DNA of 50,476 bases, taken from positions 1 to 50,476 of the forward strand of contig JAJJBE010000061.1 of the NCBI GenBank assembly GCA_020996635.1. The letters are read 5' to 3'. The DNA comes from Bathymodiolus brooksi methanotrophic gill symbiont (GTDB taxonomy: Bacteria > Pseudomonadota > Gammaproteobacteria > Methylococcales > Methylomonadaceae). Each line of letters opens with the position of its first letter. Position 1 is the stretch's first letter. A program made the translations under genes and the position numbers. Below, one piece after another: positions 7,906 through 18,950 of this stretch. The notes under the pieces were generated by a model. The model had not been told where the DNA came from. It searched no databases and saw only the letters and a program-made list of their open reading frames with translations.

Positions 7906-8259
7906 AGAGTTGGTCGTAAGCCGGGTTTTGTCTAGGACAGCCATTCATCTAGGCCATAAGTCACCTTATGGCTCAAGCGATCTACCCAGAAGCCGCGCGA
8001 GCAGCGCGTCTGCTTCTCTATTTGATCTTGCTCCAGATAGGGTTTACCATGCCACAGCTGTTACCAGCTGCGCGGTGCGCTCTTACCGCACCATTTCACC
8101 CTTACCGAATACCCGAAGGTATCAGGCGGTTTATTTTCTGCTGCACTTTCCATAGGCTCACGCCTCCCAGAAGTTATCTGGTATCTTGCTCTGTGGAGCC
8201 CGGACTTTCCTCTGTATTAATTGTAAACAAGTAAATAAAGCGACTGCCTGACCAACTCT
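7906..8259 (-). ncRNA. rnpB: RNase P RNA (type A)
   Basis: Read on the minus strand the RNA begins AGAGTTGGTCAGGCAGTCGC and contains the universal GAGGAAAGTCCGGGCTCC block. It ends ...AACCCGGCTTACGACCAACTCT, so the two ends form the P1 helix (AGAGTTGGTC with GACCAACTCT). The length of about 354 bases fits bacterial type A RNase P RNA, the ribozyme that cleaves 5' leaders from pre-tRNAs. It lies just downstream of rsmI. Small open frames within it are chance. Confidence 0.96.
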
Positions 8260-8292
8260 ACTGAGTATTATAGCCGATTTGAGTGTGTTTGG

Positions 8293-9153
8293 TTATGATT
8301 GATTCTGTGCTGCTAGTTGTAAGGCAGTTTGGTAGAGTAATTTCTTGCGAACTCCTGTAATTTTAACGGCTAAGCTGACGGCTGTTTTTATACTGCATTC
8401 GCTTAATAATAGTGTCAGTGTCATTAATTGATGTTCATTTAATGATTCTGGTTTTTTTTCTATGGGTTTGGGGCTGACCATCACTACAAATTCACCGCGG
8501 CGCATATTGCTATCTTCATTAACAAGTAATAGCATTTTTTCAATGCTGGTTTTAATGATAGTTTCGTGTAGTTTTGTTATTTCTCTGGCAATAGAAATTT
8601 CATGGTTTGCTGGTAGTACACTAGATAAGTCTTCAATACATGCTGCAATGCGGTGGCATGATTCATAAAAAACCCAAGTGTGTGGTGTATTGAGTTGTTC
8701 TTTGAATAAGCTTTGCCGAGCGCTAGAAGTGCGCGGTAGAAACCCTAAAAAGGTAAAGTGGCTAACAGGTAGCCCAGAGGTGGATAAAGCAGCAATTAAT
8801 GCACAAGCACCAGGAATAGGGGAGACTTGAATGCCTTCGGAGTGCGCTAAAGCAACTAAGGGCATGCCAGGATCGCTAATTAACGGAGTACCGGCATCGG
8901 AAATAATGGCTATTGATGTACCCGTTTTTATTTTTTCTATTAAACCTGCCGCTGCGTGTTCTTCATTATGCTGGTGTAATGCAATACAGTGCGTCGTTAT
9001 TCTATAATGTTGCAATAATGTGCGTGCGTGTCGAGTATCTTCTGCACAAATAATATCAACATCTTTTAGGGTTTCAATTGCTCGTAGGCTAAAGTCAGCT
9101 AAATTGCCGATAGGGGTTGCAATAACATAAAGAGAACCTTGTGATTGGGACAT
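8293..9153 (-). CDS. rsmI: 16S rRNA (cytidine-1402-2'-O)-methyltransferase
   Basis: A 286-residue tetrapyrrole-methylase-fold protein. The N-terminus SLYVIATPIGNLADFSLRAI and the downstream CAEDTRHARTLL and ISDAGTPLISDPG motifs are signatures of RsmI, which uses SAM to 2'-O-methylate C1402 of 16S rRNA. Length matches E. coli RsmI (286). It is divergent from lpoA, the same arrangement as yraL-yraM in E. coli, with a short shared promoter region of under 90 bases. Confidence 0.95.
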   Translation of the reverse strand: MSQSQGSLYVIATPIGNLADFSLRAIETLKDVDIICAEDTRHARTLLQHYRITTHCIALHQHNEEHAAAGLIEKIKTGTSIAIISDAGTPLISDPGMPLVALAHSEGIQVSPIPGACALIAALSTSGLPVSHFTFLGFLPRTSSARQSLFKEQLNTPHTWVFYESCHRIAACIEDLSSVLPANHEISIAREITKLHETIIKTSIEKMLLLVNEDSNMRRGEFVVMVSPKPIEKKPESLNEHQLMTLTLLLSECSIKTAVSLAVKITGVRKKLLYQTALQLAAQNQS

Positions 9154-12966: not shown

Positions 12967-13608
12967 ATGGCAACACCATTAATTCAAATGGCATTAGATT
13001 CTTTAGATTTCGACGCAACTGTAGCACTTGCTGAGCAAGTGGCTGATTCTGTTGATATCTTCGAAATCGGTACACCATGTATCAAGCATAACGGTATTAA
13101 CTTAGTAAAAGAGCTAAGAGCAAGATTTCCTAATCACCTACTTTTAGTTGATTTAAAAACTATGGATGCTGGTGGATATGAATCAGCTCCTTTCTACGAA
13201 GCTGGCGCAGATATCTGTACAGTATTAGGCGTTTCTGGTTTAGCGACTTGCCAAGGTGTTATTGACGTTGCAAACGCAAACGGTGCAGAAGCACAAATTG
13301 ATTTAATCAACGTTGCTGATAAAGCAGCAGTTTCAAGAGAATGTGTTGCAGCTGGCGCGCAAATCGTTGGTGTTCACACAGGTCTTGATGCACAGGCAGC
13401 TGGCCACACACCTTTCGATGACTTAGCATTAATTGCTGACTTAGCGCTAAACGTACGTGTTTCTGTTGCTGGTGGTATTAACCAATCTACAGTACAAGAC
13501 GTAGTTCGTGCTGGTGCAGACATCATTGTTGTTGGTGCAGCTATTTACGGTGCAGCATCTCCAGCAGAAGCAGCACGTGAAATTCGTGAATTAGTAGATG
13601 CTGCATAA
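12967..13608 (+). CDS. hxlA: 3-hexulose-6-phosphate synthase
   Basis: A 213-residue TIM-barrel enzyme of the orotidine-decarboxylase superfamily. It joins formaldehyde and ribulose 5-phosphate to make hexulose 6-phosphate, the fixation step of the RuMP cycle. The metal/catalytic strand LLVDLKTMDAGGYES carries the family D-x-K-x-x-D motif. A phosphate-binding region follows (VRVSVAGGINQSTVQDVVRA, then GADIIVVGAAIYGA). Codon use is biased to C-ending Asn, Phe and Ile codons more than in neighbouring genes, as expected for a very abundant protein. It is followed after 14 bases by hxlB. Confidence 0.96.
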   Translation: MATPLIQMALDSLDFDATVALAEQVADSVDIFEIGTPCIKHNGINLVKELRARFPNHLLLVDLKTMDAGGYESAPFYEAGADICTVLGVSGLATCQGVIDVANANGAEAQIDLINVADKAAVSRECVAAGAQIVGVHTGLDAQAAGHTPFDDLALIADLALNVRVSVAGGINQSTVQDVVRAGADIIVVGAAIYGAASPAEAAREIRELVDAA

Positions 13609-13622
13609 GGCGGAGAATCAAT

Positions 13623-14168
13623 ATGTGGCAACAAGAAAATCAGCAATTAGTCGTTAATAAGATTTCAGAAATTCTTGATGCGACTGATCTTGCTTATGCA
13701 GAGCAAATGACTGCAATGTTTGATAATGCACGGAGGATTTTTATCTCTGGTGCGGGTCGTTCAAAGTTAGTCGGTAACTTTCTAGGTATGCGTTTAATGC
13801 ATAGTGGTTACGATGTTAGCATGGTAGGTGAAATTGTTACTCCTAGCATTAAGGATGGTGATTTATTAATTATCATTTCTGGCTCGGGAGAAACAGAGCA
13901 ATTAGTAGCATTCACAAAGAAAGCGAAAAGCGTGGGTGCAAAAATTGTATTGATTTGTTCAAAAGAGAAATCGACTATCGGTGATTTATCTGATGGTGTT
14001 TTTCAAGTTGGTAAACAAGAGCTGTATGAAACAGTAAAAGGTATGCCAATGGGAACTGTTTTTGAACTATCTACCTTATGTTTCTTAGAAGCGGTAATTG
14101 CTCATATGATCTGGGAAAAAGGTATTCCAGAAGAGAAGATGAGAGAAAGACACGCTAATATGGAATAG
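13623..14168 (+). CDS. hxlB: 6-phospho-3-hexuloisomerase
   Basis: A 181-residue SIS-domain isomerase that converts hexulose 6-phosphate to fructose 6-phosphate, the second RuMP step. The SIS motifs are clear: FISGAGRSKLVGNFLGMRLM, then GDLLIIISGSGETEQLVAFT and a C-terminal GTVFELSTLCFLEAVIAHM. The size and the close link to hxlA are standard. A strong terminator follows the gene, so hxlAB can be transcribed as a two-gene unit. Confidence 0.96.
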   Translation: MWQQENQQLVVNKISEILDATDLAYAEQMTAMFDNARRIFISGAGRSKLVGNFLGMRLMHSGYDVSMVGEIVTPSIKDGDLLIIISGSGETEQLVAFTKKAKSVGAKIVLICSKEKSTIGDLSDGVFQVGKQELYETVKGMPMGTVFELSTLCFLEAVIAHMIWEKGIPEEKMRERHANME

Positions 14169-14291: not shown

Positions 14292-16277
14292 ATGTCTTCG
14301 CGTAGAGAACTTGCGAACGCCATACGCGCTTTAAGCATGGATGCCGTACAAAAAGCTAAATCAGGTCACCCAGGTGCACCAATGGGAATGGCTGATATAG
14401 CAGAAGTGTTATGGAATGATCATTTAAAGCATAACCCTAGCAATCCAAATTGGTCTGATCGTGATAGATTTCTTCTATCTAATGGTCATGGGTCTATGTT
14501 AATTTACTCATTGTTACATTTGTCAGGTTACGACTTGCCAATGGATGAGTTAAAAACATTTCGTCAATTACATTCTAAATGTGCGGGACATCCAGAGTAT
14601 ACTTATGCTCCTGGAATTGAAACAACAACCGGCCCTTTAGGGCAAGGCATCACTAATGGTGTTGGTTTTGCAATGGCTGAAAAGTTATTAGCAGCTGAAT
14701 TTAACCGTCCAGGTCACGATATCGTTGACCATAATACCTATGTATTCCTAGGTGATGGTTGTTTAATGGAAGGTATCTCTCATGAAGCTTGCTCTTTAGC
14801 GGGTACATGGGGTTTAGGTAACTTAATTGCGTTCTGGGATGATAACAACATCTCTATCGATGGTCATATTGATGGTTGGTATACAGACGATACAGTTAAA
14901 CGTTTTGAAGCTTACCAATGGCATGTTATTTCTGTAGACGGCCATGATTCTGATGCAATTAATGCTGCGGTTGTAGATGCTAAAAAAGTAACTGACAAAC
15001 CAACACTAATTTGTTGTAAAACAATTATTGGTTTTGGTTCACCTAATAAATCAGGTAGCCATGATTGTCATGGTGCTGCATTGGGTGATGAAGAAGTTGC
15101 ATTAACTCGTAAAGAATTAGGTTGGACTTCAGCTCCTTTTGAAATTCCTGCTGATGTCTATGCAGGTTGGGATGCTAAAGAAGCAGGCGCTAAAAAAGAA
15201 GCATCTTGGGATGCTAAATTTGCAGCTTACGCTAAAGAATTCCCTGAGCTAGCGGCAGAATTCAAACGTCGTATGGCGAAAGAATTACCAGCAAACTGGA
15301 CAGAAAAAACGGATGCAATTATTGCTGATGTTAATGATAAGGCTGAAAGTTTAGCTTCTCGTCAAGCATCACAAAAAATGATTGCTGCATTAGCACCTGT
15401 ACTACCTGAGTTCTTAGGTGGTTCTGCTGATTTAACCGGTTCTAACCTAACTAGCTGTGCTGATTTCAAACACGTTAGCGGTAAAGAGAATGGTAATTAC
15501 ATCTCTTACGGTGTACGTGAATTCGGTATGTATGCAATCATGAACGGAATGGCTTTACACGGTGGCTTAATGCCATTTGGTGGCACATTCCATATGTTCT
15601 CTGATTATGCAAAAAGTGCTTTCCGTATGGCTGCACTGATGAAAATTCGTACGGTTGCTGTTTTAACTCATGACTCTATTGGTCAGGGTGAAGATGGTCC
15701 TACGCATCAGCCTATTGAAAATACATCAGCAATGCGTTTAATTCCAAATATGGATGTATGGCGTCCTTCTGATTCAGTTGAAGTTGCTGTTGCATGGACG
15801 GCTGCTGTTGAACGTTTAGATGGTCCTTCAAGCTTAATCTTAAGCCGCCAGGGTATTCCTGGACGTAAACATGATACTGCTGATTTTGCTTCAATGCGTA
15901 AAGGTGCTTATGTTCTATTGGAAGCGAAAGGTGAGGCACAAGCTATCATTATCGCAACGGGATCAGAAGTTGATTTAGCGATGAAAGCACAGGAAGCACT
16001 AGCTACTGAAGGTGTTAACGTACGTGTTGTTTCTATGCCTTCAACTAATGTATTTGATCGTCAAGACCAGGCTTACAAAGATAGCGTATTAACTCCAGGT
16101 GTAAAACGTGTTGCAGTTGAAGCAGGTGTTACTGATTTCTGGCGTAAATATGTTGGCTTAGAAGGTGCTGTTGTTGGTATCGATACTTTTGGTGAATCTG
16201 CACCAGGTGGCGTATTAATGCAACATTTTGGATTTACAGTAGAAAACGTTGTTAAAACGGTTAAAGAAGTACTGTAA
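14292..16277 (+). CDS. tkt: Transketolase
   Basis: About 661 residues from the ATG at 14292, chosen because it follows AGGAGAAG and gives the usual N-terminus ([20 protein letters not shown]). An upstream in-frame ATG at 14247 would add 15 atypical residues. The thiamine diphosphate motif is [13 protein letters not shown]...WDDN. The substrate His-rich loop ([18 protein letters not shown]) and the C-terminal pyrimidine-binding region ([16 protein letters not shown]) are present. In this context it rearranges sugar phosphates to regenerate ribulose 5-phosphate for the RuMP cycle. Confidence 0.96.
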
Positions 16278-16324: not shown

Positions 16325-16349
16325 GATCACTGGTCATTAACCAGTGGTC
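16325..16349 (+). terminator. Hairpin after tkt (weak terminator candidate)
   Basis: GATCACTGG pairs with CCAGTGGTC (one G-U) across a 7-base loop. The following TTCGTTTCTT is only partly T-rich, so termination may be incomplete and allow read-through to the next two genes. Confidence 0.5.
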
Positions 16350-16379
16350 TTCGTTTCTTACGATAAATAGGTGAATTGC

Positions 16380-17021
16380 GTGAAAAAAAATAATTTAAAA
16401 AAAGGTATCTTTACTGCCTTATTACTTGCTAGTTCGGTTGTAACAGCAGGAACCAAATACCCAGCGGCGGATTTTCAGCCCAAAGTTGTATACCAAGATT
16501 CAAGCTATGAGCATAGTAGCTCTTCTTCAAAATCTACAGTAGATTTTGGTGAAAAAGCTAAAGATGATAGTAATTACCCTGCAGCAACATTTAAGCCACA
16601 AGTTTTATTTGCTGATGAAAGCTATAAACATAATACAAAAGTATCTAATGTTGCAAATTCAGCAGGTGAAAGCTCAGTTAGTAATACAGAAAATGCTGAC
16701 TCATCTGAAGCATCAGCTTCTGGTGAAAGTGTAAGCCCAATATTGGCTCTTATTATATTAGCCGTTGCAGTTTTCTTATTCCGTAAAAAATCTGGGTTAA
16801 AAGCTAGCTCAGGTGGTGACTCAAGTAAATTAACTGGGGTAGCTCAATACCTTAAAAATAAAGCACCGAAAATTTCTGGTGTTACTAAATACTTGGAAAA
16901 GCATCAACCTACTCCAAAATCTGGTGTTGCTAAATATGTAGCAAGAAGGTTGGTAGAAGTAAAAAAAGCAGCAGCTGAAAAAACAACTGGTGTAGAAAAA
17001 TATATGCGTAAAAAAGGATAG
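16380..17021 (+). CDS. Unrecognised membrane-anchored protein with four [ST]GVxKY[LV] repeats
   Basis: Not recognised as a named family. I chose the GTG at 16380 (AGGTGA five bases upstream; clean signal peptide MKKNNLKKGIFTALLLASSV) over GTG 16371. Layout of the 213 residues: signal peptide 1-23; two exported copies of a YPAA-x-F-x-P-x-V segment (27-45 and 66-84); a Ser-rich linker; a membrane helix (about 119-134) followed by RKK. The RKK predicts a cytoplasmic C-terminus. That tail holds four repeats: TGVAQYL (152), SGVTKYL (166), SGVAKYV (181) and TGVEKYM (203). The next gene, 3 bases on, carries eight more copies. The location between transketolase and transaldolase suggests a link to central carbon metabolism or its membrane, but no function can be assigned. 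Confidence 0.7.
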   Translation: MKKNNLKKGIFTALLLASSVVTAGTKYPAADFQPKVVYQDSSYEHSSSSSKSTVDFGEKAKDDSNYPAATFKPQVLFADESYKHNTKVSNVANSAGESSVSNTENADSSEASASGESVSPILALIILAVAVFLFRKKSGLKASSGGDSSKLTGVAQYLKNKAPKISGVTKYLEKHQPTPKSGVAKYVARRLVEVKKAAAEKTTGVEKYMRKKG

Positions 17022-17024
17022 ATA

Positions 17025-17681
17025 ATGGGGTTTTTATCAAAAATTTTTCCTAATAAATCTGTAGCGAAAAATACTTATCATAAAGAGACTCGCGTTAAGC
17101 CGAGTGTTAAATCGAGTGTAGATAAATATATTGAAACTCAGAGTAGTAATTCGTGTAATTCAGGCGTTCTTTCTAAGAAGTTAACGTGTGTTGATGAATA
17201 TTTTAATGCTAAGAATGAAGCAGTAGTTGAGTTGACTAGTGTGGAAAAGGATGAGATAAATATTCGAATTACTGAAAAAATAAAACTGAGAAAATCTGAG
17301 GAGAGCTTGATGAGTGTTGAAGACAAAGAACTTAGTGGTGTAGCTAAATATGTTGAAAGCCAAAAAGAGGCAAATGCAGCGGCTGAATTGAATGTACAAG
17401 CTCCTACTGGCGTCGCTAAATATTTGGCAGATATTATTAGCAATAGATCTGTAGCAACCGGTGTTTCTAAGTATTTATTAAATCGTACTGAAGCGACTGT
17501 AAGTAGTGTTGACCGGTATGTTATTAGTAAATCTTTAGCAGATAAAAATAAACCCGTAGTTGTTATTATTCCTGACTCAAGTGTTACTAAATATTTAGAA
17601 GATATTTCAACGATGCAAACAAGTCGTGTTGCTAAATATCTTGCAAAGAAAGTAATTTCAGATAAACAAGTAGTGGCTTAA
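17025..17681 (+). CDS. Unrecognised soluble protein with eight [ST]xVxKY[LV] repeats
   Basis: Not recognised as a named family. The 218 residues show no signal peptide or membrane helix, so the protein is predicted cytoplasmic. Repeats are spread through the length: SSVDKYI (30), TCVDEYF (54), SGVAKYV (104), TGVAKYL (128), TGVSKYL (145), SSVDRYV (160), SSVTKYL (185) and SRVAKYL (200). They are separated by variable, charged, probably flexible spacers. The ATG lies 3 bases after the stop codon of the membrane-anchored partner, so the pair is co-expressed. The pattern suggests a multivalent linear-motif protein that binds one partner many times, or self-assembles. This is inference from the repeats alone. 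Confidence 0.7.
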   Translation: MGFLSKIFPNKSVAKNTYHKETRVKPSVKSSVDKYIETQSSNSCNSGVLSKKLTCVDEYFNAKNEAVVELTSVEKDEINIRITEKIKLRKSEESLMSVEDKELSGVAKYVESQKEANAAAELNVQAPTGVAKYLADIISNRSVATGVSKYLLNRTEATVSSVDRYVISKSLADKNKPVVVIIPDSSVTKYLEDISTMQTSRVAKYLAKKVISDKQVVA

Positions 17682-17720: not shown

Positions 17721-17760
17721 TAGTTATCACTTTTGATTTGAATCTCAAAAGTGATAATTA
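17721..17760 (+). other. Perfect hairpin after the KY-repeat genes
   Basis: TTATCACTTTTGA (17724-17736) pairs exactly with TCAAAAGTGATAA (17745-17757), extendable to 16 pairs. It lacks a T run on either side, so it may stabilise the mRNA end rather than terminate. Confidence 0.6.
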
Positions 17761-17771
17761 ATTTAATATTT

Positions 17772-17818
17772 AAATCTATTTTCCTTAATGCTAATTAAGG
17801 AAAGTAGATTTTGTTTTT
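17772..17818 (+). terminator. Long hairpin terminator after the KY-repeat genes
   Basis: An 18-bp stem (17772-17789 with 17794-17811, one G-U) closes a 4-base loop and is followed by TGTTTTTAT. This is the best terminator candidate for the two repeat-protein genes. Confidence 0.7.
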
Positions 17819-17966: not shown

Positions 17967-18950
17967 ATGGCTAATTTATTAGATCAACTTAAAGCGGTAA
18001 CGGTTGCTGTTGCAGATACAGGCAATATTGGTGCTATCAAAGAATTTACTCCACGTGATGCAACAACAAACCCTTCATTAATTACTGCGGCAGCTCAAAT
18101 GCCAGAGTATCAAGGTATTGTTGATGATACATTAAACGCTGCGCGTGAAACTTTAGGTGCATCTGCAAACGCAAAAGAAGTGGCTGTGTTAGCATTTGAT
18201 CGTTTAGCGGTATCTTTTGGTTTAAAAATTTTAGAAATCGTTCCACAGCGTGTTTCTACAGAAGTTGATGCTCGTTTATCTTATGATACAGATGCTACCA
18301 TTTCTAAAGGTCGTGATTTAATTGCACAATATAAAGCAGCTGGTGTTGATTCTGATCGTATCTTAATTAAAGTGGCAGCAACTTGGGAAGGTATCCAAGC
18401 GGCTAAAATTTTAGAAGCAGAAGGTATTCATACTAACTTAACTTTAGTATTTGGCTTACACCAAGCGATTGCTTGTGCTGAAAATGGAATTACCCTGATT
18501 TCTCCTTTTGTTGGTCGTATTCTTGATTGGTACAAAAAAGATACAGGTCGTGATTCTTACGATCCAGCTGAAGATCCAGGTGTTGTTTCTGTTACAGAAA
18601 TCTACAACTACTACAAAAAATTTGGTTTCAAAACAGAAGTTATGGGTGCAAGTTTCCGTAACTTAGGTGAAATTACCGAATTAGCAGGTTGTGATTTACT
18701 AACTATCGCACCAGCATTATTAGCTGAGTTACAAGCAACTGAAGGTGATTTACCTCGTAAATTAGATCCTGAAGCGGCTAAAACAATGGATATTACAGAA
18801 ATCAATGTTGATAAAGCAACATTTGATAAAATGCATGCTGAAAATCCTATGGCAACAGAAAAACTAGCTGAAGGTATCAAAGGCTTTGAAAAAGCACTAG
18901 AGTCTTTAGAAGAGTTATTAGCTAATCGTTTAGCTGAAATTGAAGCTTAA
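17967..18950 (+). CDS. tal: Transaldolase
   Basis: A 327-residue class I aldolase-type barrel. The N-terminus [20 protein letters not shown] and [16 protein letters not shown] are typical of the TalA/TalB subfamily. The Schiff-base Lys is in [19 protein letters not shown], equivalent to K132 of E. coli TalB. It interconverts sedoheptulose 7-phosphate plus glyceraldehyde 3-phosphate with erythrose 4-phosphate plus fructose 6-phosphate, completing acceptor regeneration. The ribosome-binding site is AAGGTG. The protein is about ten residues longer than E. coli TalB at the C-terminus. It follows a 285-base leader with several hairpins. Confidence 0.95.

Follow-up and report, generated by a model that had tools for sequence, protein, structure and literature searches.

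A pair of motif-repeat proteins encoded among RuMP-cycle genes of methanotrophs: a candidate membrane-anchored docking scaffold

ORF A and ORF B, two adjacent genes embedded among RuMP-cycle genes, encode members of a real, deeply conserved and unnamed protein family with a strong RuMP link. Both proteins carry copies of one short motif, and we propose that they act as a membrane-anchored, multivalent and flexible docking scaffold for RuMP enzymes, a reading to which we assign a probability of about 0.57. The direct partner of the motif is likely HPS, and TKT or TAL are possible partners.

Results

The window, that is, the whole stretch of 50,476 nucleotides analysed, carries hps (12967..13608; TIGR03128 above cut-off, and locus linkage), phi, encoding 6-phospho-3-hexuloisomerase (13623..14168; TIGR03127 above cut-off), tkt, encoding transketolase (14292..16277, with 14247 as its start in the ORF list; TIGR00232 above cut-off), and tal, encoding transaldolase (17967..18950; TIGR00874 above cut-off), all on the + strand. 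Two open reading frames on the same strand lie three bases apart between tkt and tal, just as the original prediction had placed them: ORF A (16380..17021, +) and ORF B (17025..17681, +). The genes hps and phi are upstream of both. ORF A begins with a GTG codon. A second, in-frame GTG is found upstream at 16371, but it overlaps the AGGTG ribosome site, so that the GTG at 16380 is most likely the start; the AGGTGAATTGCGTGAAAAA stretch is unchanged across six relatives.

The product of ORF A has the topology of a tether, in agreement with what had been predicted. It starts with a signal peptide (16380..16448, +), recognisable in the sequence, modelled as helix 7-21, kept in an alignment of 29 A proteins (alignment A1) and presumably cut after VTA. 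A periplasmic segment follows with two repeats, YPAADFQPKVVYQDSSYEH (16458..16514, +) and YPAATFKPQVLFADESYKH (16575..16631, +), both near-invariant columns of alignment A1, and then a single membrane helix (16737..16790, +), identified from the sequence and as model helix 123-140 with residues numbered from 16371. RKK stands directly after this helix, and therefore the C-terminus of A, with its four motifs, is cytoplasmic. The same succession of signal peptide, two periplasmic repeats sharing a near-invariant YPAA[DT]F.P.V.Y.D, Ser-rich linker, membrane helix and basic residues is found throughout alignment A1, which usually has four motifs per protein, the final one close to the C-terminal end (TGVEKYMR.RG). 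An AlphaFold2 model of A built on this alignment (pTM 0.18) showed no globular fold; its helices were 7-21 (signal), 123-140 (membrane), 156-164, 170-177, 185-203 and 207-215, that is, one short helix per motif, beginning just past the motif S/T. A Foldseek search with the model returned nothing at E <= 0.001, and no known folded domain was found to include the repeats, as had been anticipated.

ORF B had been described as soluble. We doubt that it is freely so, because a hydrophobic N-terminal segment is conserved in B proteins. Nearly all B relatives possess one, MGFLSKIFPNK in the window and ...GLFFFMKR in others; in locus L243 it reads MDENYFIGLIVLFILSFAIFKKDK, a plain membrane helix, and in f97, a family outside the order, GFFASICGFFKSLFSS. 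The hydrophobic or amphipathic MGFLSKIF of the window (17025..17048, +), similar in character across B families, is thus a putative membrane anchor, and B is probably membrane-associated. The remainder of the protein consists of eight motifs on flexible spacers. Among 37 B proteins, some of them fragments, lengths ranged from 76 to 480 aa with 2-18 motifs each, and one B of 544 aa has 18-20, the count varying with the pattern used. The structural model of B was built from one single sequence and so says little; that of A came from an alignment.

The motif copies, all on the + strand and found by motif count, are in A TGVAQYL (motif A1, 16833..16853; model helix 156-164), SGVTKYL (motif A2, 16875..16895; helix 170-177), SGVAKYV (motif A3, 16920..16940; helix 185-203) and TGVEKYM (motif A4, 16986..17006; helix 207-215), and in B SSVDKYI (B1, 17112..17132), the degenerate TCVDEYF (B2, 17184..17204), SGVAKYV (B3, 17334..17354), TGVAKYL (B4, 17406..17426), TGVSKYL (B5, 17457..17477), SSVDRYV (B6, 17502..17522), SSVTKYL (B7, 17577..17597) and SRVAKYL (B8, 17622..17642). 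The predicted 4 and 8 copies of one motif in two otherwise different proteins were hence recovered with [STLC]xVxxY[LVIMF] (12 in all), and 3 plus 7 with the strict pattern, which in 20,000 shuffles per protein occurred on average 0.0012 (A) and 0.0015 (B) times and at most once. The remaining ORFs of the window (14,924 aa) have zero motifs. A GVxKY DNA pattern gave six matches in the pair (motifs A2-A4 and B3-B5) and stood at background level elsewhere in the genome, and protein searches of this genome detected no motif protein besides A and B.

The consensus that emerged is [TS]-G/S/R-V-A/E/S/D-K/R-Y-L/M/V-x-K/R-Q/K. Under relaxed patterns its Tyr position was Y in 456 of 461 copies and its Val position V in 456 of 457. 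A comparison of three closely related genomes gave identities of 0.89-1.00 at motif residues and 0.68-0.82 elsewhere, and many synonymous sites differed; the motifs are therefore under selection. The spacers, originally called irregular, are so in the window, but longer relatives prefer a period of 20 residues, the most frequent spacing (116 intervals).

ORF A is present in 149 of the 151 genomes of the family of the source bacterium, in all 29 of its genera and in 128 of 128 near-complete genomes. B-type repeats were detected in 124 of these 151 genomes with the window's B as query, and in nearly all sampled genomes of the family with a repeat-rich B, a query that also catches the repeats of A. 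The searches were confined to Pseudomonadota, where 348 other genomes gave no match; at the class level, alignment A1 also recovered three genomes of f97, a family with motif proteins in 52 of its 57 genomes. All full homologues keep the repeats, which are absent only from small periplasmic-repeat proteins and from HPS-bearing members of f6, a family inside the order. The expected co-occurrence with hps held among 29 chosen genomes, where A matched in 21 of 21 with HPS and in none of six without it. HPS without the motif is found in f6 and in G608, a genome outside the order; therefore, the scaffold is not required for the RuMP cycle as such. Two f6 genomes with HPS encode a protein with the signal, periplasmic and membrane parts of A and an acidic tail devoid of motifs. 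This A-like protein (L190 near 8054, L191 near 8008-8433) has a tail ending in NRQRANKTKR.RRR, and HPS is encoded elsewhere.

Searches of Pfam, NCBIfam, PHROGs and PDB sequences yielded no significant relative of A or B, which bears out the original view that they belong to no described family. Two candidate assignments were discarded. A relation to PEP-CTERM/PEF-CTERM sorting (TIGR03024) scored 13.8 bits against a cut-off of 23, and the match fell on the internal membrane helix and not on the C-terminus; PF25195 (diatom pyrenoid component 2) matched one relative with a non-significant score of 17.7 bits, where the cut-off is 70.

The gene order hps-phi-tkt-A-B-tal is conserved across the sampled genera of the source bacterium's family, so that the pair does keep its predicted place beside tkt and tal in related genomes, and in many of them a 359-aa gene, probably for fructose-bisphosphate aldolase, follows tal. 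The linkage to hps persists even where the order differs. Genomes that lack B beside A often carry it, with 4-20 motifs, at an additional hps locus (hps-phi-B, hps-B, B-hps or hps-tkt-B); further arrangements are hps-tkt-A'-B, in which A' has the signal peptide and periplasmic repeats only, and the tandem duplicate hps-phi-tkt-B-hps-phi-tkt-A-B'-tal. In f4, which belongs to the order as well, A immediately precedes hps, and the duplicated RuMP loci of f4 match those reported for Methylococcus (PMC517821, PMC8527097). The order in f97 is hps-B-tal-hps-phi, and in 30 of the 30 loci examined both hps and tal are no more than about 1.5 kb away from the motif gene. Three arrangements with the same partners are thus directly observed in three bacterial families, which is hard to attribute to shared operon history alone, and HPS is the one enzyme that all the independent arrangements have in common close to the motif gene. 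Few HPS columns (E108, E205 and others) track the motif, in a comparison with only three control sequences. The pair in the window combines an anchor (that of B being predicted from its sequence) with at least two [ST]GVx[KR]Y[LIVM] motifs and a RuMP gene (hps, phi, tkt or tal) within 4 kb, a combination to which exceptions exist.

Short A' proteins upstream of B at a second hps locus, with signal peptide and periplasmic repeats, were seen at L099:7932-8219, L103:7988-8269 and L104:201-479. At L074:12787-13561 (-), a decayed B gene, split into several pieces by frame breaks, adjoins a partial second hps.

That A and B share their motif and are usually adjacent could also mean that the motifs bind each other, the two proteins self-assembling into a membrane-bound network or filament without the enzymes as direct ligands. 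We hold this to be improbable, since an A-B pair is not required: A occurs without a nearby B in several genomes (L073, L081, L091), and in the f97 loci read the motif protein beside hps is of the B type, without an A partner.

The association of the motif with RuMP loci stood up for 84 of the 94 motif ORFs in the examined loci, each of the 84 having a RuMP gene no more than 4 kb away, in a sample that deliberately included loci away from hps. It is not exclusive. A ChpA/CheA-like hybrid kinase of f97 (2035 aa, L231:4748-10852, -), encoded far from hps, has about five motifs in its linkers (TGVERYT, TGVETYI, TGVARYL, STVDRYL and TSVDRYL), possibly linking chemosensing or twitching to the same motif partner. 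Matching ORFs of 1800-2065 codons, similar in size to this kinase, are present in many f97 genomes. In a third architecture, the motif repeats precede a C-terminal domain that is Cys-rich and conserved (TQCQAxTxKGTQCK...VCxQHN); these proteins (L203:2737-3519, -; L236:7148-8485, -; L239:7942-8769, +; L242:8007-8843, +) match no Pfam family and have no RuMP gene nearby, as is also the case for orphan membrane forms with the motif in f4 (L194, L237, L238). The motif may consequently have clients or readers beyond HPS. Such bearers invite the explanation that the motif serves as a general address tag for a hub, for example the cell poles or the membrane, with RuMP-linked proteins merely its commonest bearers. 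This is unlikely, if somewhat less so than self-assembly: the cases are a minority, the genome of the source bacterium encodes no other motif protein, and the RuMP enzymes in the loci read carry no motif, whereas a tag would require it there.

The motif tail of A has a net charge of +13 and B of +7, against -17 for HPS, -23 for TKT and -19 for TAL, values that are compatible with docking but unspecific. Basic tails, together with the short V-Y-L/Lys-Arg helix at each motif in the model of A and the hydrophobic N-terminal segments of B, would equally suit motifs that bind membrane lipid and not an enzyme, as amphipathic Lys-rich helices stacking or bending the intracytoplasmic membrane. We give this a small chance, between those of the two preceding alternatives. 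The motif helices are short and their residue identity is strict at the Tyr and Val positions, which suggests protein recognition; the genes are linked to hps and not to methane monooxygenase genes; and the motif proteins of f97, presumably methylotrophs without intracytoplasmic membranes, stand beside hps and tal.

A hairpin of terminator or attenuator type occupies the gap between tkt and A (16325..16349, +), and the hairpin search located two terminator-like ones in the gap between B and tal (17721-17760 and 17772-17811, together 17721..17811, +). In the window and its relatives (alignment A2), the stem of the first is preserved, its sequence varies, and it is placed just before the invariant ribosome site and start region. 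This hairpin is likely an attenuator, and, together with the strong hairpins after B, it suggests that expression of the pair differs in level from expression of the enzymes, which would fit a sub-stoichiometric scaffold. Different expression and operon linkage would also suit a role of A and B in regulating or stabilising HPS or TKT (as an activator, chaperone or degradation adaptor) and not in positioning it; this is very improbable, the least favoured of the explanations weighed here, as 4-20 repeats and a membrane anchor would be needless for a regulator.

Discussion

The handling of formaldehyde by methanotrophs, which make this toxic compound outside the cytoplasm and need it inside, is a long-standing question. 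Their methanol dehydrogenase is located in the periplasm; formaldehyde thus crosses the membrane on its way in, and within the RuMP cycle HPS is the first to accept it. In our proposal, A and B belong to a single new family of RuMP scaffold proteins that are membrane-anchored and intrinsically flexible. Their [ST]GV[A/E/S/D][K/R]Y[L/M/V]x[K/R][Q/K] motif would fold into a short helix capped by Ser/Thr, with a V-Y-L face and Lys/Arg flanks, and each such helix would dock a RuMP enzyme. With four motifs on the inner side, A would pin a motif array to the membrane, either cytoplasmic or intracytoplasmic; B, with its N-terminal anchor and 4-20 motifs, would multiply the docking sites and, by cross-linking the enzymes, build a layer or condensate bound to the membrane. 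HPS held at the inner face of the membrane could then catch formaldehyde on its entry to the cytoplasm. The HPS of Methylococcus capsulatus was reportedly once described as particulate.

A bolder version of this proposal, which we put forward only tentatively and consider rather doubtful, is that the gammaproteobacterial methanotrophs and a second methylotroph family possess a membrane-bound condensate or layer of HPS, perhaps of the whole RuMP cycle, that is a formaldehyde-fixing counterpart of the algal pyrenoid, depends on one lineage-specific docking motif and, by way of the YPAA repeats in A, connects across the membrane with a partner in the periplasm.

The Chlamydomonas pyrenoid is the nearest functional analogue, in the sense of working like it and not of being one. 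In that system EPYC1 and the transmembrane RBMP1 and RBMP2 share a Rubisco-binding motif (PMC10473226). The likeness would lie in a disordered linker with several short motifs accompanied by transmembrane proteins bearing the same motif, in a motif that is short, multivalent and confined to one lineage, and in a linked enzyme that fixes C1 carbon. Several short helix-forming motifs on a disordered protein are found in the model of A (that of B being single-sequence); A has a membrane helix and B shares the motif, but B itself may be membrane-bound. The two systems differ in that we found no sequence relation between them, the motif is another one, the presumed enzyme is HPS instead of Rubisco and the proteins are bacterial; moreover, A has periplasmic repeats, B its own N-terminal anchor, and docking is here a prediction. 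If A and B do hold HPS at the membrane, the pyrenoid principle would have arisen a second time, by convergence.

CsoS2 of alpha-carboxysomes is a bacterial disordered repeat protein that collects a carbon-fixing enzyme. A and B resemble it in being bacterial disordered repeat proteins for which the gathering of a carbon-fixing enzyme is proposed, but they would have a membrane anchor in place of a protein shell. An assignment to the carboxysome was rejected, as there is no match to the CsoS2 family and no shell genes are found nearby.

Methanol use improves when HPS, PHI and methanol dehydrogenase are combined in engineered assemblies (PMC13001265, PMC8879981), and a natural version is therefore plausible. 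These assemblies gather the same enzymes to limit the loss of formaldehyde; however, they are artificial, made through SH3 ligand or linker fusions, whereas the scaffold proposed here would be natural and membrane-bound. Should A and B indeed hold HPS at the membrane, they would offer a ready natural scaffold for synthetic methylotrophy, a field that already benefits from artificial HPS assemblies. Fused HPS-PHI enzymes (NF041755), noted in Methylococcus (PMC8527097), also couple RuMP enzymes physically and occur in the same order of bacteria, but by covalent fusion and without motif repeats. No natural RuMP scaffold or metabolon was found in the open-access literature searched.

With regard to the periplasmic repeats of A, a tie to methanol dehydrogenase was considered and rejected, since repeat-only proteins adjoin transporter genes and no recognised methanol dehydrogenase. 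These are small secreted proteins made up of YPAANFQPKV repeats only, and each is encoded beside ABC transporter genes for a permease, an ATPase and, in most cases, a binding protein, so the periplasmic repeat of A belongs to a wider periplasmic element. They were observed at L102:7907-8251, L185:8186-8440, L202:3547-3927 and L234:8386-8712.
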